From positions 62,001-126,000 of the forward strand of contig WGLW01000023.1 of assembly GCA_016125405.1 (NCBI GenBank): a stretch of DNA of 64,000 nt, given 5' to 3'. The first letter of the stretch is position 1. Each line of letters begins with the position of its first letter. Of the stretch, positions 38,966-54,217 are shown piece by piece. The position numbers and the translations under genes are program-made. Below the pieces are notes generated by a model. It worked only from the letters and a program-made list of their open reading frames with translations, searched no databases and was not told where the DNA came from. Source of the stretch: Alphaproteobacteria bacterium. GTDB taxonomy: Bacteria; Pseudomonadota; Alphaproteobacteria; Caulobacterales; Hyphomonadaceae.

Positions 38966-40753
38966 TCAGCCGGGTGAAGACATCGCGAGTATCAGGACAA
39001 AGCTCAGTAGAGCGACGGTCCAGATCGCCGCTCCGGCCAGCGGCAGATGGCGCGCGACCACGCCATCCGGCGCAAAGATCTGCCCCGATCCCGAGATGAG
39101 GCCGGCGCCGGCGCGTCCGAACGCCTTGTCCGCCCATACGCCCAGCCTGCCCGCCAGCCGGCCCAGGACGCCGGTTATCGCCGGCGCCGCTTTCCGCCAC
39201 AGCCACTCGATGTCGAGGATCACGCCGGGCTGTTCGGTCGGGTAGAGCTTCAGCCGCTTGAGCAGGACGAAGGCCAGCACCGCGAAAGCCAGAAGCTGCA
39301 TCTGGACCAGAAGATGGTCGGCGGTGAACAGGTCCTGCGCCAGGAACGCCATCGCAACAGAGCGATATGGCAGAAGCTCGAAGAACCAGCCGGGCGCGAT
39401 CCCGATTGCAAGGCACAGCGCGGACGCCAGCCCCATCGCCAGCAGCATCGTGAAGGGCGCTTCCTTCGGCCGCTTGCCGCTGTCGTGGCTGAAGAAGGCG
39501 AAGTACGGAATCTTGATGCCGGAATGTTCGAGCACGCCGGCCGAGGCGAACAGCAGCATCAGCCACACCGCGAACATCGCCGGCGTATGCGCCGCCGTCA
39601 TGATCATCGACTTGGTGGAGAAGCCCGCGAACAGCGGCAGCGCGGAAATCGACATGGCGCCGATCAGGCAGAACAGCGTGGTCCACGGCATCGTGCGGTG
39701 CAGGCCGCCCAGCTCGCTGGCCTTGGTGGTGCCGGTGCGCATAAAGACAGCGCCCATCGCCATGAAGAGAAGGCCCTTGAAGACGATGTGGGCGACCGCG
39801 TGCGCCGCCGCGCCATCGATCGCCAGCGGCGTGCCAATGCCGACAGCGCAGACCATGAAACCGATCTGGTTGTTGGTGGAATAGGCCAGAACCCGGCGAA
39901 GGTCGTTCTCCATCACCGCGAAGAAGACCGGATAGACGGTCATCGCCGCGCCGATCCAGACCAGCCAGTCCAGACCCGCGAAGCATCGCGCGAGCACATA
40001 GACGGCCAGCGTGGTCGTGTAGGCCGACATCACGACGGCGCCGGTTTCCGTGGTGTTGGGATAGGCGTCGGTCAGCCAGTTGTGGAAGGTTGGAAACGCC
40101 GCCTTGATGCCGACGCCCGCGAGAATGAGAAGCCCGCCGGGCGCGTGAATGTCGAGCATGCCGATCAGCACGCCGCGATGAAGCTGGCCCAGGTCCGCGA
40201 ACAGGAAGCTGCCGGCGTCGAGGCCATAGAGAACGACGCCCGCCATCAGCAGAAGGCCGGACAAGAGCTGGATCAGCAGATATCGCATGCCCGCCATCTG
40301 GCCCTGCTTTGTCTGCCGGGCGAAGACGAGCGCCACGGATGCGACTGCGGTCAGTTCCCAGAAGACAACAAGGCTGATGAGGTCTCCCGCGAACACTGCG
40401 GCCATCGCCGCGCCGGCGTATAGCAGGCCGGCGCTGTCCTGCATCCGGTCCTCGCGATGCAGCGAGTAGACGCCGGAAAGCGCCGCCGCGAGCACGAATC
40501 CGAAGCCGAATATCATCGACAGGCTGTCCGGCCGGTACAGCGACATGTTGAAGCCGAGAAAGAAGCTGCGCGTGATCTCGGTTCCCGAGGCCGGCGCATA
40601 GAGCAGCGCCAGCAGCGCGAGGGCCGGACCGCCAAGAAGCGCAACGCCGCGCGAACCCGGGCCGCGGGCGAAGACGGCCCACACAGCCGCCGCGATCAGG
40701 TAGAAGCCCGGATTGATGGTGACGGCGATGTCGAGAAGGCGGTCAACCGTCAT
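38966..40753 (-). CDS. Antiporter subunit, NuoL/M/MnhD-like (third copy in operon)
   Basis: A 595-residue membrane protein of the proton-translocating NuoL/M/N superfamily with about 14-16 hydrophobic helices. The key Glu-bearing helix is [18 protein letters not shown], and [22 protein letters not shown] is the conserved loop (here with HNWL where MnhD usually has HxWLP). It is the last gene of the minus-strand operon, and its ATG overlaps the previous gene by 11 bp. A long C-terminal helical extension (residues about 500-595) is unlike plain MnhD and recalls the lateral helix or C-terminal part of NuoL-like subunits. Confidence 0.88.
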
Positions 40754-41123
40754 GGCCGTCCTCCTTCTCTTCCTCGACTGTGTTGTCCGGGTCTTTGTCC
40801 GGCTGGTCGCGGTAGTAGTTTTCCGGGCGCCGCATCAACCGTCCGAGCGGCCAGCCGCTCAGCACGGCGAGCGCAAACGCGAGAAAGCCGAAGACGCCCT
40901 GAAAGACCGGCAGGGAATCGATCCCGCCGCCGTCATGGCGATGGATCACCAGCTCCAGCGCAGCCAGCACGGCGCAAAGAGCGCCCAGCCCGGCGAGGAA
41001 CATGCGGTCGAACAGGTCGCTGCGCATCCAGGAAAACAACAGCACGGACAGCGGATGCTCGTCCGCCTCGCCGGCTGGCTGCGGGTGAGGATCGTTTTGC
41101 TCGCCGGAGCGTGTCTCCGTCAT
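40743..41123 (-). CDS. Small membrane subunit within the antiporter operon
   Basis: A 126-residue protein with a soluble charged N-terminus, two hydrophobic helices (about 41-60 and 72-93) and an acidic tail ([13 protein letters not shown]). It overlaps the genes on both sides (4 bp upstream, 11 bp downstream), so it is translationally coupled and probably part of the complex. It matches no standard Mnh subunit that I recognise. Confidence 0.75.
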   Translation of the reverse strand: MTETRSGEQNDPHPQPAGEADEHPLSVLLFSWMRSDLFDRMFLAGLGALCAVLAALELVIHRHDGGGIDSLPVFQGVFGFLAFALAVLSGWPLGRLMRRPENYYRDQPDKDPDNTVEEEKEDGHDG

Positions 41124-42592
41124 CGGGCGCCTCCCGCCAGGGGGCCGAGGAAAGCGACGATCGGGCCCGCGAGGAAAAACAGCACCAGGCACAGTGTCGC
41201 CGTGATCGCGATCGGCGTGAGGCTCAGCCGCGGCGCGCCGCCGGGCAAGGTGAAGGCCGCCGGTTGCGTGCCGGTCGGGGGCAGAAGTCCGTAAACGGCG
41301 ATCGGCATCAGGTACATCGTGGACAGGATCGAGGAAGCGATCATCGCCCACGCCGTCCACGGCTGGCCAGCGTCGAAGGCGTTGGTGATGAGCAGGAATT
41401 TCGACCACATGCCGCCGAAGGGCGGAAGGCCGATGACCGACAGCGAGCCGACCAGGAAGGCGCCGAATGTCAGCGGCATGCGCCGCCCCAGCCCGCGCAT
41501 TTCGCTGACGCGGCTGACGCCCGTCGCCGCGAAGATGACGCCCGCGCCGAAGAACAGCGTGATCTTGCCGACCGCGTGCGTGACCATGCCGAGCCCGCCC
41601 GCCGTCAGCGCCGCGCCGCCGATCAGCGCTGCGGACGTGATGTAGGCGAGCTGACCGATGGTCGACCACGCCAGCCGGGCCTTGATCTCGTCCTTGGTCA
41701 TCGCGACCAGAGAGGCGATCACGATGGTCGCCGCCGCCAGCCACAACAGCCATTGCGTGACCGGGTTGGCGTGCATCAGGTCCGCCCCGAAAATGTATCC
41801 CGAGACCTTGAGCAGAACGAACACGCCCGCCTTCACCACGGCCACGGCGTGCAGCATGGCCGACACTGGCGCCGGGGCCACCATCGCGTTGGGCAGCCAG
41901 GCATGCACCGGAAACAGCGCCGCCTTGGCCGCGCCGAACACGATCAGCGCCAGCAGCAGGCCCGCCGTCGCCGGTCCCGCCTTGTCGACCAGCAGGCCGC
42001 CCGCGACGAAGTCGGTGGATCCCGCCAGGACATAGATGATGATGATCGCCGGCAGGAGCAGCAGCACGGACGCCCCCGCGAGGATTCCGAGATAGATGCG
42101 CCCTGCCCGCCGCGCCGCCGCATCGCCCTTGTGCGCCACCAGCGGATAGGTCGCAAACGTCAGCACCTCGTAGAAGATGAACATGGTGAAGAGGTTGCCC
42201 GCCATCGCAACGCCCATCACACCCGCCATCGCCAGCGCGAAGCACATGTAGAAACGTGTCTGGTTGGTCTCGCGCTTGGCCCGCATGTAGCCGAACGAAT
42301 AGAGCGAGTTGACCGCCCACAGCGTCGACGACATCAGCGCGAACAGTGCGCCCAGCGGCTCAAGCTTGAAGGCGATGTCGAGACCCGGAAGCGGATGGGC
42401 GAGCACGAGGCTGGGCGCATCGCCCTCACCTGTGCGCACCAGCATGGCGGCGCACAGGATGGCCAGCGCGATCCCGGCCAGCAGCGTGATGGTGTCGCGA
42501 ACGTCCTCCGCCCGGCCGATGGCGCGGATCACCCCCGCGGTGAACAGCGGCAGCAGCAGTGTCGCCAGGATCAGCGTCTCGCCCGTGCTCAT
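41120..42592 (-). CDS. mnhD: Na+/H+ antiporter subunit D (MnhD-like, second copy)
   Basis: A 490-residue NuoM/MnhD-type proton-translocating subunit. MAGNLFTMFIFYEVLTFATYPLVAHKG carries the conserved Glu, AAKAALFPVHAWLPNAMVAPAPVSAMLHAVAVVKAG is the signature with the conserved Lys residues, and SVIGLPPFGGMWSKFLL the later block. About 14 helices. It overlaps the upstream gene by 4 bp. Confidence 0.92.
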   Translation of the reverse strand: MSTGETLILATLLLPLFTAGVIRAIGRAEDVRDTITLLAGIALAILCAAMLVRTGEGDAPSLVLAHPLPGLDIAFKLEPLGALFALMSSTLWAVNSLYSFGYMRAKRETNQTRFYMCFALAMAGVMGVAMAGNLFTMFIFYEVLTFATYPLVAHKGDAAARRAGRIYLGILAGASVLLLLPAIIIIYVLAGSTDFVAGGLLVDKAGPATAGLLLALIVFGAAKAALFPVHAWLPNAMVAPAPVSAMLHAVAVVKAGVFVLLKVSGYIFGADLMHANPVTQWLLWLAAATIVIASLVAMTKDEIKARLAWSTIGQLAYITSAALIGGAALTAGGLGMVTHAVGKITLFFGAGVIFAATGVSRVSEMRGLGRRMPLTFGAFLVGSLSVIGLPPFGGMWSKFLLITNAFDAGQPWTAWAMIASSILSTMYLMPIAVYGLLPPTGTQPAAFTLPGGAPRLSLTPIAITATLCLVLFFLAGPIVAFLGPLAGGAR

Positions 42593-44115
42593 GGCGCCGC
42601 CCCCGCTGGCGCGAGGCCAAGCGCTTGCGCCGCGGCGGTCGACAGATCGACCGGCAGCGAGGCGTCAAGTCCATACCAGACGCTGGCCGCCGCAAGGATC
42701 CAGAGCGGAACCAGTACGCCGAACCGCGCCTCGCCGGCGCGCTCTTCGCTCACCGGCGCGCGGAAGAAAATCGTCTCCAGCATCCGCCCGGCGTAGATCA
42801 GGCCCAGCAGCGAGGACACAGCGATCACGCCGACCGCCCACAGCCAGTGCGCCGCGAACGCCGCCTCGATCAGCCGCCATTTCGACAGGAAGCCCGCCGT
42901 GAGCGGAACGCCCGCGAGGCTGAACGTCCCGATCGCAAACGCGGTCATGGTCCACGGCGCCGTGCGGCCGACGCCGGAAAAATCGGACAGCTTCGTCGCC
43001 TTGATGTTGAACGCCAGTCCGCCCAGCGCCATGAACAGCGCCGACTTGATCAGCGCCTGGTTGAACAGGTGGAACAGCCCGGCGGAAACGCCCTCGGCTG
43101 ACGCCATCGACACGCCGAGCATGATGTAGCCGACCTGCGCAACCGACGAAAAGGCGAGGATGCGCCGGATGTCCGTCTGGAAGATCGCCTGCGCCGAACA
43201 GATTATTGCAGCCGCCCCCGCCACAGGCGCCATCACCCAGGTGAGGAACAGGCCGACGAAATCGAGATGCGGCCCGAACACAGTGAACAGAAAGCGAGCC
43301 ATCAGGTAGAGCGCCGCCTTGGTCGCCGTCGCCGACAGGAAAACGCCCATCAGCGATGGCGCATACGCATAGGCGGCCGGCAGCCAGCCGTGCAGCGGAA
43401 ACATCGCCGCCTTGAGGCCCAGCCCGATGACGATGAAGGCGAAGCCCGCCTCCACCACGCGGCTGTCGCCCAGCGTCGCCAGCCGCCCGCTCATGTCTGC
43501 CATGTTGAGCGTGCCGGTCGCGGCGTAGAGAAAGCCCACGCCGATGACGAAGAAGGTCGCCCCGATCGTGCCCATGACGAGATAGTTGAACGCCGCCGGC
43601 AACGCCCGGCGATCAACGCCCACGCCGATCAGCGCATAGGTTCCGATGGATGAGACTTCGAGGAACACGAAGGCGTTGAACGCATCGCCCGTCGCCGACA
43701 GCCCAAGGAGACCGGCGACGCAAAGCAGAAAGCCGCTCTGATAGAGTCGCCGCTTGCCCTTCATGATCTCGGCTTCGAGCGTATGGCCGGAGAACAGCGC
43801 CGCCATCACACCGATGCCCGAGATCAGCAGCGCGAACATCACGCCGAGCGCATCGATGCGGAAGGCGATGCCCAGCGGCGGCGCGAACCCGCCCATGTAG
43901 TAGTTGACGACGCCGTTGCGCGCGACTTCGCCGGCAAGGCACAGCGCCATCCAGAAGGCGAAGATCGTTCCGCCCACCGAGATCATCCAGGCCGAGCGCG
44001 TGCTGGGGCTCAGCGCCGCCGCGCAGGCCGCGATCAGCGGGCCGATCACCAGCAGCGGCGCGGCGTGCGCCGTCAGCCCCGGCGGGGCGGCGTAGAAGTC
44101 GATAAAGGCGTTCAC
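42589..44115 (-). CDS. mnhD: Na+/H+ antiporter subunit D (MnhD-like, first copy)
   Basis: A 508-residue paralogue of the same superfamily: AFNAFVFLEVSSIGTYALIGVG carries the conserved Glu, GLKAAMFPLHGWLPAAYAYAPSLMGVFLSATATKAALYLM the signature with conserved Lys, and LAGVPLTAGFLSKWRLIEAAF the late block. It overlaps the mnhC-type gene by 4 bp. Two adjacent MnhD-type subunits plus a third NuoL-like one make the complex resemble Mbh/Mrp hybrids. Confidence 0.92.
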   Translation of the reverse strand: MNAFIDFYAAPPGLTAHAAPLLVIGPLIAACAAALSPSTRSAWMISVGGTIFAFWMALCLAGEVARNGVVNYYMGGFAPPLGIAFRIDALGVMFALLISGIGVMAALFSGHTLEAEIMKGKRRLYQSGFLLCVAGLLGLSATGDAFNAFVFLEVSSIGTYALIGVGVDRRALPAAFNYLVMGTIGATFFVIGVGFLYAATGTLNMADMSGRLATLGDSRVVEAGFAFIVIGLGLKAAMFPLHGWLPAAYAYAPSLMGVFLSATATKAALYLMARFLFTVFGPHLDFVGLFLTWVMAPVAGAAAIICSAQAIFQTDIRRILAFSSVAQVGYIMLGVSMASAEGVSAGLFHLFNQALIKSALFMALGGLAFNIKATKLSDFSGVGRTAPWTMTAFAIGTFSLAGVPLTAGFLSKWRLIEAAFAAHWLWAVGVIAVSSLLGLIYAGRMLETIFFRAPVSEERAGEARFGVLVPLWILAAASVWYGLDASLPVDLSTAAAQALGLAPAGAAP

Positions 44116-44552
44116 GCGCGCGGCCCCGCCTCGGTCCGGTCCAGTTCGGCGATCTCGCCCGCTTCGACCGTCCCGTAGGCTTCCCGCACGCGCACCGCGA
44201 TGGCGAGGCCGACCGCCAGCGTCGCGACGCCGACCACGATCGCCGTGAGGATCAGCACATGCGGCAGCGGGTTGGAGTAGACGACGCCATCCACGCCCGC
44301 GCGCGCGACGTAATCCGGAGAAAGATGCGCGTTGAGCGCCTCCCCCGCCTTGCTGGTCTTGTCGAGAACGATCGCCGCCGTGCCGCCCGCTACCTTGCCC
44401 AGCGAGATGTAGAACAGCCCCACCGAGGTCTGGAAGAGCGCAAGCCCGATCATCCGCTTGATGTAGTTGCGGCTCGAGAACGTGATCCAGAGGCCGCCCA
44501 TCATCAGGAAGACGACGATCAGATAGTTGAAATGCCCGAGCAGGAACGACAT
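44112..44552 (-). CDS. mnhC: Na+/H+ antiporter subunit C
   Basis: A 146-residue NuoK/MnhC-type protein with three helices. SRNYIKRMIGLALFQTSVGLFYISLG and the DPLPQALVLTAIVI-like segment (here NPLPHVLILTAIVVGVATLAVGLAIAVRV) are diagnostic. An insertion of about 40 residues between helices 2 and 3 is longer than in typical MnhC. Overlaps neighbours by 4 and 1 bp. Confidence 0.9.
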   Translation of the reverse strand: MSFLLGHFNYLIVVFLMMGGLWITFSSRNYIKRMIGLALFQTSVGLFYISLGKVAGGTAAIVLDKTSKAGEALNAHLSPDYVARAGVDGVVYSNPLPHVLILTAIVVGVATLAVGLAIAVRVREAYGTVEAGEIAELDRTEAGPRA

Positions 44553-45634
44553 CAGCCCTCCCCGTGCGGCGAAAGGTCGGGCGCGCGCCCGGCGAAGGCG
44601 TAGAAGATCGTCACCATGGTCGAGGCCACGGTGAGAAAGACGCCCAGCTCGATGGCGAGAATGCCAAAATGCTGGCCCCAGATGTGATGCCCGCCCACGA
44701 GATGGGAATCCGGCAGGCCTTCCTCGAAGATGCGCGGGAACAGGTGGTCGTAGTCCAGGAAATTGCCGCCATTGGTCAGGTTGACGACGCCGACGCCGGC
44801 GTAGAGCAGCACGCCGAAGGCGGAGAGCCCGCGCGCCAGCTGCGGCGGAATGGATTCCATCGTCTCCTGCAGGCCGAACACCAGCGCGTGCAGGATGATC
44901 GCAACAGCCATGATGACGCCGGCCTGAAAGCCGCCGCCGGGGCCCAAGTCGCCATGGAACTGCACATAGAAGGCGTAGATCGAGATCATCGGGATCAGCA
45001 TCTTGGCCGAAACGCGCAGCACGACGTGTTGCCCGCTCTCGGCCATCTTCGCCATCGACGGGCGCGGCGTGTCCTGCAGTGCGCGCTCGCCGAAGCCGAG
45101 CAGCAGCGCCACGCCCAGTCCGGCGGCGAAGATCACGGTCGTCTCGCCCAGCGTGTCGAACCCGCGATAGCTGGAGAGAACGGCGGTGACGATGTTCGGC
45201 GTGCCGATATCGTGTTCGGCGTGTTGCAGATAAAGCCGGCCCACATAGATGTTGGCGGGCGCCGATGGATCGCCCAGCGACGGAAGGTCGAGCGCCGCAT
45301 AGACGAGAAGCCCTCCGGTGACCGTCACCAGCAAGAGAGGCAGCAGCGTCTCGCGCCAGGGAATGCGGCTGCACTCGCTGCGCGTCAGCAGGATGGCGCC
45401 CAGCGCGATGATGGTCGAGACGCCCGCGCCGACCACCGCCTCGGTGAACGACACGTCGGCCGCGTCCATCACCACCAGCCAGACCGCCGAGATGAAGGAA
45501 TAGACGCTGGTGAGGATGATCGCGGTCAGCAGGCTGCGCGTGCGCGCCACCGCGACCACGATGACGGCCAGCATCGCCAGCAGCGCGATATCAACAATCG
45601 TGTTGGCATCCAGCGGGGTTGCGAAGGACGGCAT
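44552..45634 (-). CDS. Fused antiporter subunit: DUF4040/MbhD + MbhE-like + MnhB
   Basis: A 360-residue membrane protein that joins three units. Residues about 10-90 are the DUF4040/MbhD unit (TAIILTSVYSFISAVWLVVMDAADVSFTEAVVGAG). Residues 95-190 are MbhE-like (NIVTAVLSSYRGFDTLGETTVIF), normally the end of MnhA. Residues 205-350 are MnhB (LIPMISIYAFYVQFHGDLGPGGGFQAGVI). So the C-terminal part of MnhA is attached to MnhB, while no gene in the operon encodes a full-length MnhA. It overlaps the mnhG and mnhC genes by one base each. Confidence 0.88.
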   Translation of the reverse strand: MPSFATPLDANTIVDIALLAMLAVIVVAVARTRSLLTAIILTSVYSFISAVWLVVMDAADVSFTEAVVGAGVSTIIALGAILLTRSECSRIPWRETLLPLLLVTVTGGLLVYAALDLPSLGDPSAPANIYVGRLYLQHAEHDIGTPNIVTAVLSSYRGFDTLGETTVIFAAGLGVALLLGFGERALQDTPRPSMAKMAESGQHVVLRVSAKMLIPMISIYAFYVQFHGDLGPGGGFQAGVIMAVAIILHALVFGLQETMESIPPQLARGLSAFGVLLYAGVGVVNLTNGGNFLDYDHLFPRIFEEGLPDSHLVGGHHIWGQHFGILAIELGVFLTVASTMVTIFYAFAGRAPDLSPHGEG

Positions 45635-45978
45635 CAGCGCTCCGCCTCCTTCCGATCGCGATCAAACAGCCGCCACGGCCCCAGCTGTGGGCGCTCGCCG
45701 GCGCCATAGGCCGCGTTGGTCAGCGCGTGCGCGGCGGTGGGGCTGGTCAGCATGATGAAGGCCCAGATGATGGCGAGCTTGAGCGCCAGCACTGACCAGC
45801 CCGAAATCAGGATCAGCCCGAGGATCATCAGCGTCGCCGCGCCCGTGTCGGTGATGCTCGCGGCATGCGTGCGCGTATAGAAATCGGGGAAGCGGATCAC
45901 GCCCAGCGACCCGATGATGGCCGCCAGCGCCCCGGCGACCGCGAGGCTCGAACCGATCCAGGTCACGACCTCGCTCAT
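45634..45978 (-). CDS. mnhG: Na+/H+ antiporter subunit G
   Basis: A 114-residue protein with three helices and the MnhG/PhaG core GSLGVIRFPDFYTRTHAASITDTGAA and MLTSPTAAHALTNAAY. Overlaps mnhF by 4 bp and the fused MnhB gene by 1 bp. Confidence 0.93.
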   Translation of the reverse strand: MSEVVTWIGSSLAVAGALAAIIGSLGVIRFPDFYTRTHAASITDTGAATLMILGLILISGWSVLALKLAIIWAFIMLTSPTAAHALTNAAYGAGERPQLGPWRLFDRDRKEAER

Positions 45979-46292
45979 GGCGCGCCCCCGGCGTCCGCCC
46001 CGGTGTCCTTCGCCGGAGCGAGGCGCGAGAGCGAGGCCTGCAGCGAGCGGTAGCGGAAGAATTTCATCAGGGCGATGGTGGCGACGAAGTTGATCAGCGC
46101 GTAGGCGATGGCGATGTCGAGGAAGTCCGGCCGCCCGAAAACGAAACCGATCAGGGCGATGAACATCACCGTCTTGGTGCCGAAGGAGTTCGCGGAAAGA
46201 ATCCGGTCATAGGACGTCGGCCCGATCAGCGCGCGCACGAGACCGAGCGCCATCGCCGTCATCAATCCGGCTGCCGCAGCGGCGAGCAGCAT
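45975..46292 (-). CDS. mnhF: Na+/H+ antiporter subunit F
   Basis: A 105-residue protein with three helices; RALIGPTSYDRILSANSFGTKTV and DFLDIAIAYALINFVATIAL with conserved Asp are the MnhF signature. It starts 3 bp after the mnhE stop. Confidence 0.92.
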   Translation of the reverse strand: MLLAAAAAGLMTAMALGLVRALIGPTSYDRILSANSFGTKTVMFIALIGFVFGRPDFLDIAIAYALINFVATIALMKFFRYRSLQASLSRLAPAKDTGADAGGAP

Positions 46293-50203: not shown

Positions 50204-50695
50204 CTATTTCTCGACGATATCCCGGTGCTGTGGCGCAAGCGCCGCCAGCAGCCGGTTCTGCGAGGCGAAGGGAATGTGATTCTTGTTCATCGCCTTCTGC
50301 AGGTCTTCGACCAGCGCGTAGAAATCGCCCTCGGTGACGCCCATGCCCGCGTGCGCCGTCGCCATGTCCTTGCCGGAATAGACGCACCCTCCGTTGAGGA
50401 TCTGACAGAATTGCTCAACCAGCATCGCCTTGATGTGCGCCTGATCCGCCGGCGCAAAGAACGGTTTCGTCCGGCTGTCTGCGAGCAGGTTGTCCATGAA
50501 ATCGTCCATGATTTTCACGAGCCCCGGCTTGCCGCCGAAATCCTCGAAAAGGCGGGTTCCGTCCGTGATGGTTGGCGCGGTCGGCGCGCTGGTCGCGCCC
50601 GCCGTCTGGGCCAGCGCCGGCAGTCCTGCGGTGCACGCGAACGCGAGGGCGGCGAGGCTGACAGACAGGTTCGTCCGACGATAGATGCGATACAT
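50204..50695 (-). CDS. Exported group 1 truncated haemoglobin
   Basis: A 163-residue protein: signal peptide (about residues 1-30, cleavage after ALAQ), then a 2/2 globin. LFEDFGGKPGLVKIMDDF is the trHb1 N-terminal helix, and His115 in MATAHAGMGV is the proximal haem ligand. The ATG at 50695 has GGGAG upstream. Export to the periplasm is unusual for this family, which is generally cytoplasmic. It follows the DUF3034 gene by 35 bp, so the two are probably one transcription unit. A role in periplasmic O2/NO or haem handling is inference. Confidence 0.85.
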   Translation of the reverse strand: MYRIYRRTNLSVSLAALAFACTAGLPALAQTAGATSAPTAPTITDGTRLFEDFGGKPGLVKIMDDFMDNLLADSRTKPFFAPADQAHIKAMLVEQFCQILNGGCVYSGKDMATAHAGMGVTEGDFYALVEDLQKAMNKNHIPFASQNRLLAALAPQHRDIVEK

Positions 50696-50730
50696 GATCT
50701 GGTCTCCCATGAAGAGATTTTCGTGGCGCA

Positions 50731-51597
50731 TCAGAAGCCAGCCTGAAGCGATATGTAGAGGCCGCGCTGATCGCCGACGACGATGTTGCCGAGATCCGCG
50801 TAGGCCAGCGTCACCGCAAGGTTCTTGGTCGGCGCATAGGCGACGAACGCATCGTATGCAGTGTCTTCCTTGAGGCCCGCCAGGTTGTCGGGTTTGGTTC
50901 TGATTTCGGCGCCGACCGCGATCTTGCGGGTGAGCAGATAGGCCGCCGATCCCTCGAACTCCGGCTTGTAATCTCCGCTTTGTCCAAGGATGCCGAACTG
51001 GTTCGCGCGCGTCAGCCGGGCCGTCGCGTTAAGCAGGAGGCTGTGGGCCAGCAACAGCTTGGTCGCCGAAACATAGAAGTCGGCGCCGTCGCTGTGATCG
51101 GCGCCAAGAGATTTCACCAGCGTGTCGCGGTTGTTGTCCTTGTAGAGCACGCCCACCGCGACCTGAGGGATCCAGCTGTCCTGTTCGAGAATTGCATCGC
51201 CCAGCACACGCACCTTGGCTCCATAGGTGGTCACGTCGATCTTGTAGTTGCTCCCGAGACCAAGCGAGGCGCCGACATCCTGCAGATTGAATCTCTGCTG
51301 CGAGATGGAGAACTCAACCCTGTCGTTCACGGCCAGCAGCGCGCCAAAACTCTCGAGCGAGTAATCGTCGGTGTCGACGTGCGTGTAATACCCGGACGCG
51401 CCGAGTTGATCGCGCGTCCCATATCCGCCAATCAGCGCCCAGGGCGTAAGGCCGCCGCCTGCCGCGCCTTCGACTTCGCTTACGCCGCCGGTCAAAAGCA
51501 AACGGTCCGACATGCCGGCGGTCTGCGCCATGGCCGGCGCACACACGCACCCCGTCAGCGCCGCAAACGCAGCACTCGTCCAGATTTTCGATGTCAC
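50731..51597 (-). CDS. DUF3034 family outer-membrane protein
   Basis: A 288-residue protein with a signal peptide (cleavage after AMAQ) and repeated amphipathic beta strands ending in a C-terminal Phe (GLYISLQAGF), as in beta-barrel outer-membrane proteins. GLTPWALIGGYGTRDQLGASGY, FNLQDVGASLGLG and VQVAVGVLYKDN-like segments match DUF3034. It starts at GTG 51597 with GGAGG 6 nt upstream. It is the first gene of a pair with the exported haemoglobin. Confidence 0.83.
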   Translation of the reverse strand: MTSKIWTSAAFAALTGCVCAPAMAQTAGMSDRLLLTGGVSEVEGAAGGGLTPWALIGGYGTRDQLGASGYYTHVDTDDYSLESFGALLAVNDRVEFSISQQRFNLQDVGASLGLGSNYKIDVTTYGAKVRVLGDAILEQDSWIPQVAVGVLYKDNNRDTLVKSLGADHSDGADFYVSATKLLLAHSLLLNATARLTRANQFGILGQSGDYKPEFEGSAAYLLTRKIAVGAEIRTKPDNLAGLKEDTAYDAFVAYAPTKNLAVTLAYADLGNIVVGDQRGLYISLQAGF

Positions 51598-51883: not shown

Positions 51884-52297
51884 TCAGCGATCCTGCCGCA
51901 GCACGTATTCCTGATAGCTGACGACGCCGTCACCATTGCGGTCGAGCCGGGCGAAGGCGGCGGCGCGGGCGGCGGCATGGTCCTGCGCCAGGTTCGGCGC
52001 GGCGGCGCTGGGCAGGGCCACAAGCGCGGCAAGACCGATGGCGCCCACGGCGCCCGCCGCAAGATAGCGTTTCCGCCGCAGCGGCTTCGGCAACAGGCTC
52101 GACAGCCGGTCGTCCTCCGCGTCCTGCGGCGCGGCCTCGTGGCCGCCGTTTTCGACAAAAGCGTCGATAGCGCTGCGGATCACTTCGCTGGCCGTGCGCT
52201 CCTGCGCCTTGCAGACCGAAAGGAACGCCTGCTTGGCTTCGAACGGCAGACGCACCTCGACGCTTTCGGATTTCTTCGGCGGTCGCTGTTCGGTCAT
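51884..52297 (-). CDS. RHH / transmembrane / EF-hand protein (short paralogue)
   Basis: A 137-residue protein. Residues 10-48 form a ribbon-helix-helix DNA-binding unit (strand ESVEVRLP, helices FEAKQAFLSVCKA and TASEVIRSAIDAFVE). A basic stop (RRKR, about 74-77) precedes one membrane helix (78-99), so the RHH unit should be cytoplasmic and the C-terminus periplasmic. The outer part carries one EF-hand loop, DRNGDGVVSYQE (119-130). The ATG at 52297 starts MTEQRPPKKS and matches the start of the paralogue at 53445. Inferred role: membrane-tethered transcription factor or clustering protein responding to external calcium. No described family known to me has this order. Confidence 0.8.
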   Translation of the reverse strand: MTEQRPPKKSESVEVRLPFEAKQAFLSVCKAQERTASEVIRSAIDAFVENGGHEAAPQDAEDDRLSSLLPKPLRRKRYLAAGAVGAIGLAALVALPSAAAPNLAQDHAAARAAAFARLDRNGDGVVSYQEYVLRQDR

Positions 52298-52398
52298 GGT
52301 CGGTCGTTCCCTGCTTTCGGCCCTGCTCTTCGGCCCCCGCTGCGCAACAGCCGCAGCCGATGTCCCACACCAAGGTATTGAACATGGGGAAGCGGGCA

Positions 52399-52430
52399 AG
52401 AGTGTGTCCTGACATTCGCGGACACACTCT
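52399..52430. promoter_or_regulatory. Perfect 11-bp inverted repeat between the two RHH/EF-hand genes
   Basis: AGAGTGTGTCC (52399-52409) and GGACACACTCT (52420-52430) with a 10-nt spacer, 102 bp upstream of the short paralogue's start and just after the stop of the long one. There is no T tract on either side, so an operator is as likely as a terminator. A related TGTCCGGACA palindrome lies at 53626-53635, upstream of the long paralogue. Confidence 0.65.
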
Positions 52431-52443
52431 CAACGCCCTGATA

Positions 52444-53445
52444 TTATGGCAGGTATTCCTCCAGCGACAGTTTGCCGTCGCCATTCTTGTCCAGCTTTTT
52501 GAACCGCGCCTTCAGCGCCTTGGCGTCCATGGCGGGCTTGCTGACGATCTGGATGTCAGGGCCGGCGTCGGGTTTGCCGGTCGCGTCCACCTTGTCCTGG
52601 ATCATCATCGGCATGCCGATCTTCGCGTACTCTTTCTGGCTCAGATAACCGTCGTGGTTCTCGTCCAGCAGGTTGAATCCGCTGGTCAACATCGCCGTCT
52701 GGGCGGACTGGTACTCGTCATAGGTCACCTTGCCGTCCCGGTTGGCGTCGAAGCGGTCGAACTCGGACTTGCGGAAATCCGCGGTGATGACCGGCCCGTC
52801 CGCATCGCCGTCCTTCCGGACGCGGACCTCGTGCTTCTCGATCACCACGGCGTGGTCCTTGTCATCACCGCCCGTTGGCTTGGCGCCGGGCGGCGCAGCG
52901 TCGTCCGGAAGCCAGAAGGCGAAGGCCTTCTCCGTGACAGCCGGCGCGCCAGCCCTGTTTGCGTCCTTGCCAGAGTCCTTGTCTGCGTCCGCGCCGGCGG
53001 GCCCGGTGCGATGCTCGATGACCACCACCTTCTTGTCGGCGCCGGATTTCGAGCCCTCGAACTCGTCGGCCGAAAGCACGCCGTCCTTGTTGGCGTCGAG
53101 GCGGTTGAACGCGGCCCGCATGTCCGGTCCGGCGGCGCTGGGCAGCGCCACGGCGAGGCCGGCGGCGAGCACGCCCGCGCCGGCGAGCATGTAGCGTTTC
53201 TTTCGGATGGGTCTGGAGATCATTTCGAGCAGCCTTCCTGTCTCGGGTGGAGGGGATGGCCGCTCGCGCGCGTCGAGATAGTCGTCGATGGTTCCGCGAA
53301 CCACTTCGCTCGCGGTTGTTCCATCTTCCCGGCAGGCGGTCAGGAACGCCTGCTTGGTTTCGTAAGGAAGGCGCACCTCAAGCGTCTCGGACTTCTTGGA
53401 AGTCCGGGGCTTCTTGCCAGGTTTCCCGGGGTTCGGATCTGCCAT
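52444..53445 (-). CDS. RHH / transmembrane / multi-EF-hand protein (long paralogue)
   Basis: A 333-residue protein. Residues 18-58 make an RHH unit (SETLEVRLPYETKQAFLTAC, TASEVVRGTIDDYLDA), nearly the same as in the short paralogue. RKKR (81-84) and one helix (about 85-104) follow. The exterior part has four EF-hand loops: D117 (DANKDGVLSADE), D233 (DANRDGKVTYDE), D261 (DENHDGYLSQKE) and D319 (DKNGDGKLSLEE), with a charged linker in between. GGGAAGG lies 8 nt before the ATG. It probably binds Ca2+ in the periplasm and signals to a DNA-binding domain across the membrane; this is inferred from architecture only. Confidence 0.82.
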   Translation of the reverse strand: MADPNPGKPGKKPRTSKKSETLEVRLPYETKQAFLTACREDGTTASEVVRGTIDDYLDARERPSPPPETGRLLEMISRPIRKKRYMLAGAGVLAAGLAVALPSAAGPDMRAAFNRLDANKDGVLSADEFEGSKSGADKKVVVIEHRTGPAGADADKDSGKDANRAGAPAVTEKAFAFWLPDDAAPPGAKPTGGDDKDHAVVIEKHEVRVRKDGDADGPVITADFRKSEFDRFDANRDGKVTYDEYQSAQTAMLTSGFNLLDENHDGYLSQKEYAKIGMPMMIQDKVDATGKPDAGPDIQIVSKPAMDAKALKARFKKLDKNGDGKLSLEEYLP

Positions 53446-53767
53446 CGGGTTCGCCTTCCCTCGCGCCAGCGGCCGTCCTCAGGAAACGTCAGCCGCCGGA
53501 TCACGCCCAGCAAAGTCCTGCGCGGGCAGAGGGCATTCTGCGCCGGGGCGCGAACGCAGGCCACAATCCGGCGGATCAATTCCGCCCGGGCGCCGGAAAA
53601 ACCGAAGGATCGGGCCGCCAAATCTTGTCCGGACAGCACTGTGGCGGGGGGCGCCGCCGGTTCGGGGCTGGCCGCGCTACCCCGGCCAGTCGAATCGGCG
53701 CAACTGCGCCTTTGCCACGCGCCCGGCAGGGTCATACTGTCGGCGGAAACAATCTCAGGGGCTGCCC
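53446..53767. other. Divergent intergenic region before the MaoC gene
   Basis: 322 bp with no convincing gene. A 10-bp palindrome TGTCCGGACA lies at 53626-53635. A minus-strand frame at 53340-53735 is open but overlaps the RHH gene start and has no recognisable domain. Confidence 0.5.
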
Positions 53768-54217
53768 ATGCGTTCGATCCACTTCAAGGACCTTGAAACA
53801 CTCGTCGGCCAGGAGGTCGGGGTCTCCAACTGGCACGAGATCAGCCAGACCCAGGTGAACAAGTTCGCCGAGGCCACCGGCGACCATCAGTGGATCCACG
53901 TCGACGTCCCCCGCGCCACCAAGGAGCTGGGCCACCCCATCGCCCACGGCTACCTCACCCTGTCCCTCCTGCCGATGCTGTCGTCCCAGATCATGAAGGT
54001 CGACGGGGTCGCGCGCGGAATCAACTACGGGGCGAACAAGGTGCGGTTCACCAACATGGTGCCGGTCGGCTCGCGGGTGCGGTTGCGCCAGAAATGCCTG
54101 AGCGTGGAGCCCAGGGCCGGCGGCAAGCAGATCACGATGGAGTCCTCCATCGAGATCGAGGGCAAGGACCGCCCCGCCCTGATCGCCGAAACCATCGGCA
54201 TTACCTACGGGGAATAG
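53768..54217 (+). CDS. MaoC family (R)-enoyl-CoA hydratase-like protein
   Basis: A 149-residue single-hotdog hydratase. SQTQVNKFAEATGDHQWIHVD carries the catalytic Asp39 and His44, and HPIAHGYLTLSLLP is the second conserved block. The ATG at 53768 gives the standard family start. Known members hydrate trans-2-enoyl-CoA to (R)-3-hydroxyacyl-CoA, feeding PHA synthesis or fatty-acid metabolism. A perfect 14-bp palindrome (CTGAGGG/CCCTCAG, 54234-54247) lies 17 bp after its stop. Confidence 0.9.
   Translation: MRSIHFKDLETLVGQEVGVSNWHEISQTQVNKFAEATGDHQWIHVDVPRATKELGHPIAHGYLTLSLLPMLSSQIMKVDGVARGINYGANKVRFTNMVPVGSRVRLRQKCLSVEPRAGGKQITMESSIEIEGKDRPALIAETIGITYGE

Follow-up and report, generated by a model that had tools for sequence, protein, structure and literature searches.

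A widespread alphaproteobacterial family of ribbon-helix-helix proteins with a signal-peptide-like membrane helix and a candidate link to signal peptidase I

Gene pair, protein layout and the ribbon-helix-helix unit

The window is the whole stretch of DNA that was analysed, 64,000 nucleotides long. It contains two related genes in tandem, a long gene followed by a short one (Table 1), with a DUF3034 gene on one side and, on the other, a MaoC-like gene in divergent orientation (53768–54217, plus strand). Both proteins begin with the pattern KKSE-x-[LV]EVRLP..K.AFL..C....TASEV.R..I, which belongs to a ribbon-helix-helix (RHH) unit. Next come a linker and the basic motif R[RK]KRY; a hydrophobic stretch with LPSAA at its end leads on to the EF-hand loops. 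The basic residues (RRKRY or RKKRY) stand immediately N-terminal of the hydrophobic segment, which is the single one in each protein (Kyte-Doolittle maximum of the 19-residue mean, 1.95 in the short and 1.82 in the long protein). In the neighbourhood, the gene directly after the DUF3034 gene encodes a protein that resembles truncated globins (PF01152, 46 bits) and starts like a signal peptide (50204–50731 and 50731–51597, minus strand). Elsewhere in the window, AT skew was unusually high (0.18–0.27) across the 6 kb from 40001 to 46000.

Table 1. Positions of the genes, protein parts and candidate operators in the window
Feature	Position	Strand	Remarks
Short gene	51884–52297	-	137 aa from ATG; RHH, signal-like membrane helix, one EF-hand
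EF-hand loop DRNGDGVVSYQE, short protein (residues 119–130)	51908–51943	-	Pfam EF-hand_1 19.7 bits, below the cut-off of 25.4 bits
Basic patch, hydrophobic helix and PSAA motif, short protein (residues 74–99)	52001–52078	-	
RHH unit, short protein (residues 8–49)	52151–52276	-	Alignment; AlphaFold2 model helices 19–31 and 36–49, high confidence
Perfect 11-bp inverted repeat AGAGTGTGTCC-N10-GGACACACTCT	52399–52430		Overlaps the candidate operator of the short gene
Candidate operator of the short gene	52405–52414		TGTCCTGACA on the plus strand, TGTCAGGACA in gene direction
Long gene	52444–53445	-	333 aa; RHH, signal-like membrane helix, four EF-hands
EF-hand loop 4, long protein (residues 319–330)	52456–52491	-	Pattern and Pfam
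EF-hand loop 3, long protein (residues 261–272)	52630–52665	-	Pattern and Pfam
EF-hand loop 2, long protein (residues 233–244)	52714–52749	-	Pattern and Pfam
EF-hand loop 1, long protein (residues 117–128)	53062–53097	-	Pattern and Pfam
Basic patch, hydrophobic helix and PSAA motif, long protein (residues 81–105)	53131–53205	-	
RHH unit, long protein (residues 17–59)	53269–53397	-	Alignment, profile and model
Candidate operator of the long gene, TGTCCGGACA	53626–53635		Centre 185 bp before the start codon

Both proteins show the layout given in the original prediction: the RHH unit comes first, then basic residues and a single hydrophobic helix, and one or four EF-hand loops complete the chain. 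The side on which the basic residues lie also supports the predicted N-in membrane segment with the EF-hands outside. A DNA-binding domain and a membrane segment would be joined in one chain, with a predicted location in the membrane. To call the two RHH units nearly identical was too strong, as the N-terminal parts are 49% identical. The long protein matched EF-hand_1 and EF-hand_5 of Pfam at 75–77 bits, well above the cut-off, and had a fifth match to the EF-hand pattern at residue 212, with D and not E in the last position.

The RHH units of the window proteins were under the Pfam cut-offs (RHH_9, ParG). When a family profile built from 16 diverse members (A2) was compared with PDB chains, solved RHH proteins came first, DinJ (5.7e-5) and ORF56 (6.4e-5) ahead of ParG and RelB, and the RHH_1 cut-off was passed by three relatives, L040, L175 and L184, all having the same layout. 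In the AlphaFold2 model of the long protein, two helices were placed with high confidence at residues 28–41 and 45–59; those of the short protein are given in Table 1. For residues 87–104, the hydrophobic segment, the long model had a pLDDT below 50. The models are of monomers, and no strand was assigned in either; an RHH strand forms together with the partner chain. Foldseek returned ORF56, Arc, CdbA and AmrZ as the top matches of the short model, weakly (E ≥ 0.37), CdbA being presumably an RHH class protein. The matches of the long model were EF-hand proteins.

Other identities were considered for the pair. Pfam gave no match at E ≤ 0.1 to a winged-helix DNA-binding domain of the ToxR/CadC type in the window proteins. 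A type II antitoxin was rejected, with no toxin among the five neighbours scanned (MaoC-like, DUF3034, globin, S9 peptidase and MFS). Lanmodulin and XopAW (NCBIfam) have EF-hand loops in common with the long protein and were rejected as well, its scores being far below their cut-offs (31.4 vs 135 and 56.6 vs 120, respectively).

Family members and operator sites

The N-terminal 125 residues were matched in 42 of 81 genomes at E ≤ 0.01 (source genome counted, some matches weak), so the layout is not a chance pattern. A scan of the genome contigs gave 160 relatives, of which 80 were kept. Where a lineage was given, these belonged mostly to Hyphomonadaceae, Caulobacteraceae and Parvularcula, and they also included Aminobacter, Devosia, Kordiimonadales and sphingomonads. 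Class-wide, 20 of 289 genomes matched at E ≤ 1e-3, few of them across the whole module. The search for the predicted architecture across alphaproteobacteria was thus answered by a large and widespread family of proteins with an RHH unit and a transmembrane helix (RHH-TM).

The outer parts varied. EF-hand_5 was present in 69 of the 87 aligned members and TonB_C was matched by eight, and some members, e.g. L175, L179 and L184, had no named exterior domain. The RHH unit with its helix is therefore a module with exchangeable exteriors, and many proteins that would pass for mere EF-hand proteins are likely to function as RHH regulators. A Kordiimonadaceae contig (L122) carries a run of at least four paralogous RHH-TM genes with EF-hands, and variant sites, TGTACTTACA for example, accompany some of them. 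At two further loci (L171 and L033), an EF-hand and a TonB_C-like RHH-TM gene adjoin, and the gene upstream of them reads as uppP.

Stand-alone exteriors lacking an RHH unit were also looked for. Matches were present in 15 of 61 genomes, and those of two genomes (G013 and G051) were inspected. The match in G013, which is of the same genus as the window, was rejected, since this orthologue (L280) appears to be a remnant in which the RHH part is missing. The weak match in G051 (L282, E 1.7e-7) was rejected too: this EF-hand protein lacks an RHH unit and starts with what resembles an ordinary signal peptide, and the match probably reflects general EF-hand likeness only. The conserved gene neighbours in Hyphomonadaceae were read as general synteny only.

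In the original prediction, the pair was interpreted as a calcium-responsive one-component switch: the protein would stay whole, and the binding of calcium outside would change the dimer and its DNA binding inside. The EF-hands, canonical and common in the family, agree with such a switch, as do the N-in topology and the presence of an own operator (below), and in an RHH dimer the single EF-hands of the two chains would come to lie as a pair. The TonB_C exteriors and the members with no named exterior domain argue that calcium is not the common signal. Two further points against the switch are given with the membrane helix and the second target below.

The operator set comprised 113 non-identical members, of which 112 had at least 150 bp of upstream sequence. 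The exact site TGTCNNGACA (TGTC-NN-GACA) was found in 73 of these 112 upstream regions, compared with a mean of 0.2 in 20 base-shuffled sets, and its loose form TGTNNNNACA in 84 (reversed control, 7 of 112), being absent from the other 28. The distance from the operator centre to the ATG had a median of 101 bp (range 49–252), and a second, weaker copy was often seen 21–22 bp further on. A CTG[GT]C element 18 bp past the first operator base, with a weak T-rich element after it, points to a possible promoter next to the operator. In the window, the long gene and the divergent MaoC-like gene share the upstream region in which the site of the long gene lies. The original prediction held that the two proteins might vie for a single operator; the genes have separate sites, which differ from each other in one base (TGTCCGGACA and TGTCCTGACA), so cross-binding is possible and not required.

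A search of 81 genomes for exact GTGTCCGGACAC gave 31 sites, 14 of them directly upstream of RHH-TM genes. In three Ponticaulis-type genomes (L190, L191 and L192, near position 2001), exact GTGTCCGGACAC was observed before the gene of a small secreted protein, and in L190 and L191 the sites there read as double or near-double.

In RHH proteins, alternate strand residues touch bases. Among the RHH positions scanned, the strand residue x in KK[ST]E-x-[LIV]E shared the most information with the operator centre, with z-scores of 10.5, 5.6 and 5.0 at three redundancy levels (80, 41 and 25 sequences). Strand position 6, two residues past x, ranked third, second and fifth (z 7.2, 3.8 and 1.9), and further RHH positions also scored in the full set, as expected from relatedness. 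With Lys at x, all four genes of the first set that had a site carried TGTCATGACA, and a fifth (L177) was without a site. The resulting prediction was carried over to 44 new genes, 16 of which had no site at all. Nine of the 14 with Lys at x had a site (eight TGTCATGACA and one TGTCCTGACA), and 19 of the 30 without Lys had one, none of them of the TGTCATGACA type. The out-of-sample outcome was thus 8/9 vs 0/19, with a Fisher value of 2.9e-6 that is a guide and not a true probability, because the sequences are related. The members combining Lys with TGTCATGACA fell into two families and had both EF-hand and other exteriors. Three genes with Arg at x (L037, L318 and L338) had TGTCCGTACA or its complement as their site; L185 was the one exception.

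The operator centre tracks a residue of the RHH strand, in the new genes as in the first set, and it is therefore very probable that the RHH unit binds upstream of the gene that encodes it. The predicted DNA recognition by this unit is thereby supported by natural variation, and the operator appears to be read by strand residues, as in the RHH superfamily. Alternatively, another regulator might own the operator and control both the RHH and the peptidase genes (see below), with the RHH unit doing something else. The link between operator and RHH unit rests on sequence, which leaves some room for such a regulator, but the covariation with the strand residue speaks against it. So do the 17 GTGTCCGGACAC sites not beside RHH-TM genes, which are about as many as the sites in the reversed control (19) and lie mostly inside long open reading frames. 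We consider this alternative very improbable.

The end of the membrane helix and the signal peptidase I gene

The hydrophobic helix is built like a signal peptide. The window proteins and most members have the basic, hydrophobic, small-x-small tripartite signal of signal peptidase I substrates, and both window proteins have PSAA at the helix end. In the 16 diverse members (A2), S103 and A105 of P-S-x-A were invariant, and A105 was the only column outside the RHH unit, the start Met aside, that was conserved at 90% or more in 87 members. The motif P[STA]x[AG] followed the helix in 83 of 108 members and in none of 30 PBP rows from the same order, which were taken as uncleaved anchors (two of them, L220 and L236, look mis-framed). 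LolA, used as a positive control, had the motif in only 3 of 25 cases, several frames being wrongly chosen; the control failed and lends no support. Many of the 25 members without P[STA]x[AG] still end, by eye, in sites of the A-x-A type.

With the helix built in this way and ending in P-S-x-A, signal peptidase I probably cuts there, and most members, those of the window included, are predicted to be its substrates. A few members, L297, L305 and L380 among them, resemble plain membrane anchors, which means that not every member can be expected to be cut. For the calcium switch, the conserved motif is a difficulty, since a cut at this place would split the sensor from the DNA-binding part.

The operator was also present at a second gene. 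In 939 kb of fetched loci (overlaps multiply counted), 75 distinct TGTCNNGACA sites lay upstream of RHH-TM genes and 50 elsewhere, with 11 in the reversed control. It was ruled out that all sites away from RHH genes are background: in 28 loci, the site stood before a neighbouring gene recognised as signal peptidase I, on the strand opposite to the RHH gene except in L116. These genes were recognised by motif, and a site was counted within 420 bp before the catalytic PSxSM motif. The 80 named loci contained 30 recognised signal peptidase I genes, 28 of them with the site, which was in some cases doubled at 21–22 bp. All 30 loci had a site somewhere, at the RHH gene in 13, at the peptidase gene in 28 and at both in 11; no peptidase gene was recognised in the other 50 named loci, and in 41 of these the RHH gene had a site. 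P[STA]xA was present in all 30 peptidase-linked members, 19 of which have 27–29 residues past the motif, about one EF-hand. Two peptidase proteins of RHH loci (L161 and L116) and two encoded in the genome of the window were checked against PF10502, and all four matched at E ≤ 2.3e-38.

Copies of the peptidase gene within the same genomes were then compared. Eight RHH-bearing genomes of the Caulobacteraceae type each had two strong PF10502 matches (E ≤ 1e-44), one of which was beside the RHH gene; three of the eight also had weaker matches. The site was present at the RHH-adjacent copy in all eight. Over 14 genomes, it was found at none of the 13 recognised copies not beside an RHH gene (the copy of G065 was not recognised); this control may overlap the 80-locus set, and G061 is certainly in both. 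Six genomes of that family had no clear RHH-TM match, five with a single PF10502 match and G065 with four. G069, likewise without a clear RHH-TM match, had two and was left out of the six.

Signal peptidase I genes elsewhere had the site in 4 of 60 regions, one of them RHH-linked, and none of the 24 loci recognised among L383–L412 had it (six were not recognised). The idea that the enzyme is a general target in Hyphomonadaceae is therefore not supported. Given this rarity at distant peptidase genes, the link is shown for the Caulobacteraceae-type loci and one Sphingomonas record, and not for most Hyphomonadaceae. The genome of the window has two tandem peptidase genes (L208:985-3003; G000:C54:193215-195233), on the same contig as the RHH genes and outside the window, and one of them has TGTCCGGACA 146 bp before its likely start. 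The aligned motif before the peptidase gene in this genus may sit in the end of the preceding coding region. A separate observation concerns a secreted protein gene beside the RHH gene in L140 (4274–5371, minus strand) and L145 (5638–7047, minus strand), with sites upstream of it or in its start region. Its product has a metallopeptidase-like AHEFAH(L/M)W motif and, in L140, no Pfam match at 1e-3.

The peptidase gene as a second target has no obvious calcium link. The calcium-to-DNA switch is regarded as possible but unlikely, and it is the main rival of the circuit described below. Another rival is level control without sensing, in which various periplasmic proteins would carry an autorepressor RHH unit joined to their signal peptide, the cut parts having separate duties. 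Exchangeable exteriors, an own operator and a cleavage motif would all be accounted for in this way. It leaves unexplained, however, why the operator also stands before the neighbouring signal peptidase I gene and why some members look like plain anchors, and we find it improbable.

Candidate circuit and related systems

The reading that we favour, and hold to be probable though by no means secure, is a membrane-anchored RHH regulator that acts on its own gene and is itself a probable substrate of the class of peptidase under its control, and so an export feedback device. A cytoplasmic RHH dimer would recognise TGTC-NN-GACA before its own gene and, in the Caulobacteraceae-type loci, would control the adjacent extra signal peptidase I gene through the same site. 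Signal peptidase I would cut at P-S-x-A and release the EF-hand or other part into the periplasm, and the remaining RHH-helix stub would repress its own gene and the peptidase gene. When the peptidase is scarce or overloaded, uncut protein would build up, repression would fall and more peptidase would be made. This negative feedback is the simplest circuit that uses all the parts, with the sign of regulation inferred; the reverse assignment, in which the uncut form represses, would make a runaway loop.

EF-hands usually work in pairs. As RHH dimers would pair single EF-hands, cutting at the site could be allowed or prevented by calcium, and the paired EF-hands might tune or protect the cleavage site by calcium or folding. 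More tentatively, and with rather less confidence than in the feedback device as such, the system may be pictured as a signal peptidase I homeostat. Its anchor would itself be a peptidase substrate and would report cleavage capacity straight to the peptidase promoter and its own, the EF-hand tail would make the reading dependent on calcium or folding, and other clades would have re-used the module with other exteriors. Signal peptidase I is an essential export enzyme, and the means by which bacteria fit its supply to the export load are, to our knowledge, largely open. Confirmation of the peptidase feedback would make it a circuit of a new kind; the regulator, its operator, a partial residue-to-base code and the candidate circuit are all laid out here from sequence.

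CopG/Arc/MetJ regulators and RHH antitoxins are self-regulating. Representatives such as ORF56, Arc, AmrZ, ParG and DinJ have in common with the present family the RHH unit, palindromic sites and strand residues that follow operator base pairs. The CopG/Arc/MetJ-type RHH proteins known to us are soluble, and among the matches of the searches made there was no known RHH regulator with a membrane helix and an exterior domain. NikR is a nickel-responsive RHH regulator and resembles the window proteins in combining an RHH unit with a metal-binding part; it differs in that its metal-binding domain is cytoplasmic and that it has no membrane helix.

The Caulobacter CaBP CCNA_02838 is likewise a small periplasmic EF-hand protein from the same order, but has a signal sequence at residues 1–21, and the word "ribbon" does not occur in the text (PMC13171946). 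The other EF-hand proteins listed in the passages considered, one of them probably transmembrane, are given no regulator role (PMC13171946). In S. aureus, a transcriptional repressor is similarly tied to deficiency of the signal peptidase SpsB; it is a Cro/CI homologue whose critical target is an ABC transporter that bypasses SpsB, and "transmembrane" is absent from the text (PMC5013292). Among the matches listed from the open PMC literature, no paper described an RHH, transmembrane and EF-hand architecture or an RHH regulator of signal peptidase, in line with the earlier statement that no described system of this architecture was known. The family is apparently undescribed.

ToxR and CadC have a winged-helix DNA-binding domain. 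The present proteins differ from them in the RHH unit, in the signal-peptidase-like helix end and in the sites at their own and at peptidase genes. ToxR, CadC and TcpP are covered by a survey of transmembrane transcription regulators and, like the proteins described here, join a DNA-binding domain to a membrane segment in a single polypeptide, in many cases with an outer domain as well (PMC10269533). The words ribbon, RHH, CopG, MetJ and EF-hand are absent from the main text of the survey, and its supplement covers more than 100 DNA-binding domains, among which RHH may be included (PMC10269533). The family is a variant of the transmembrane one-component regulators, and with it the RHH class is added to the membrane-bound regulators.
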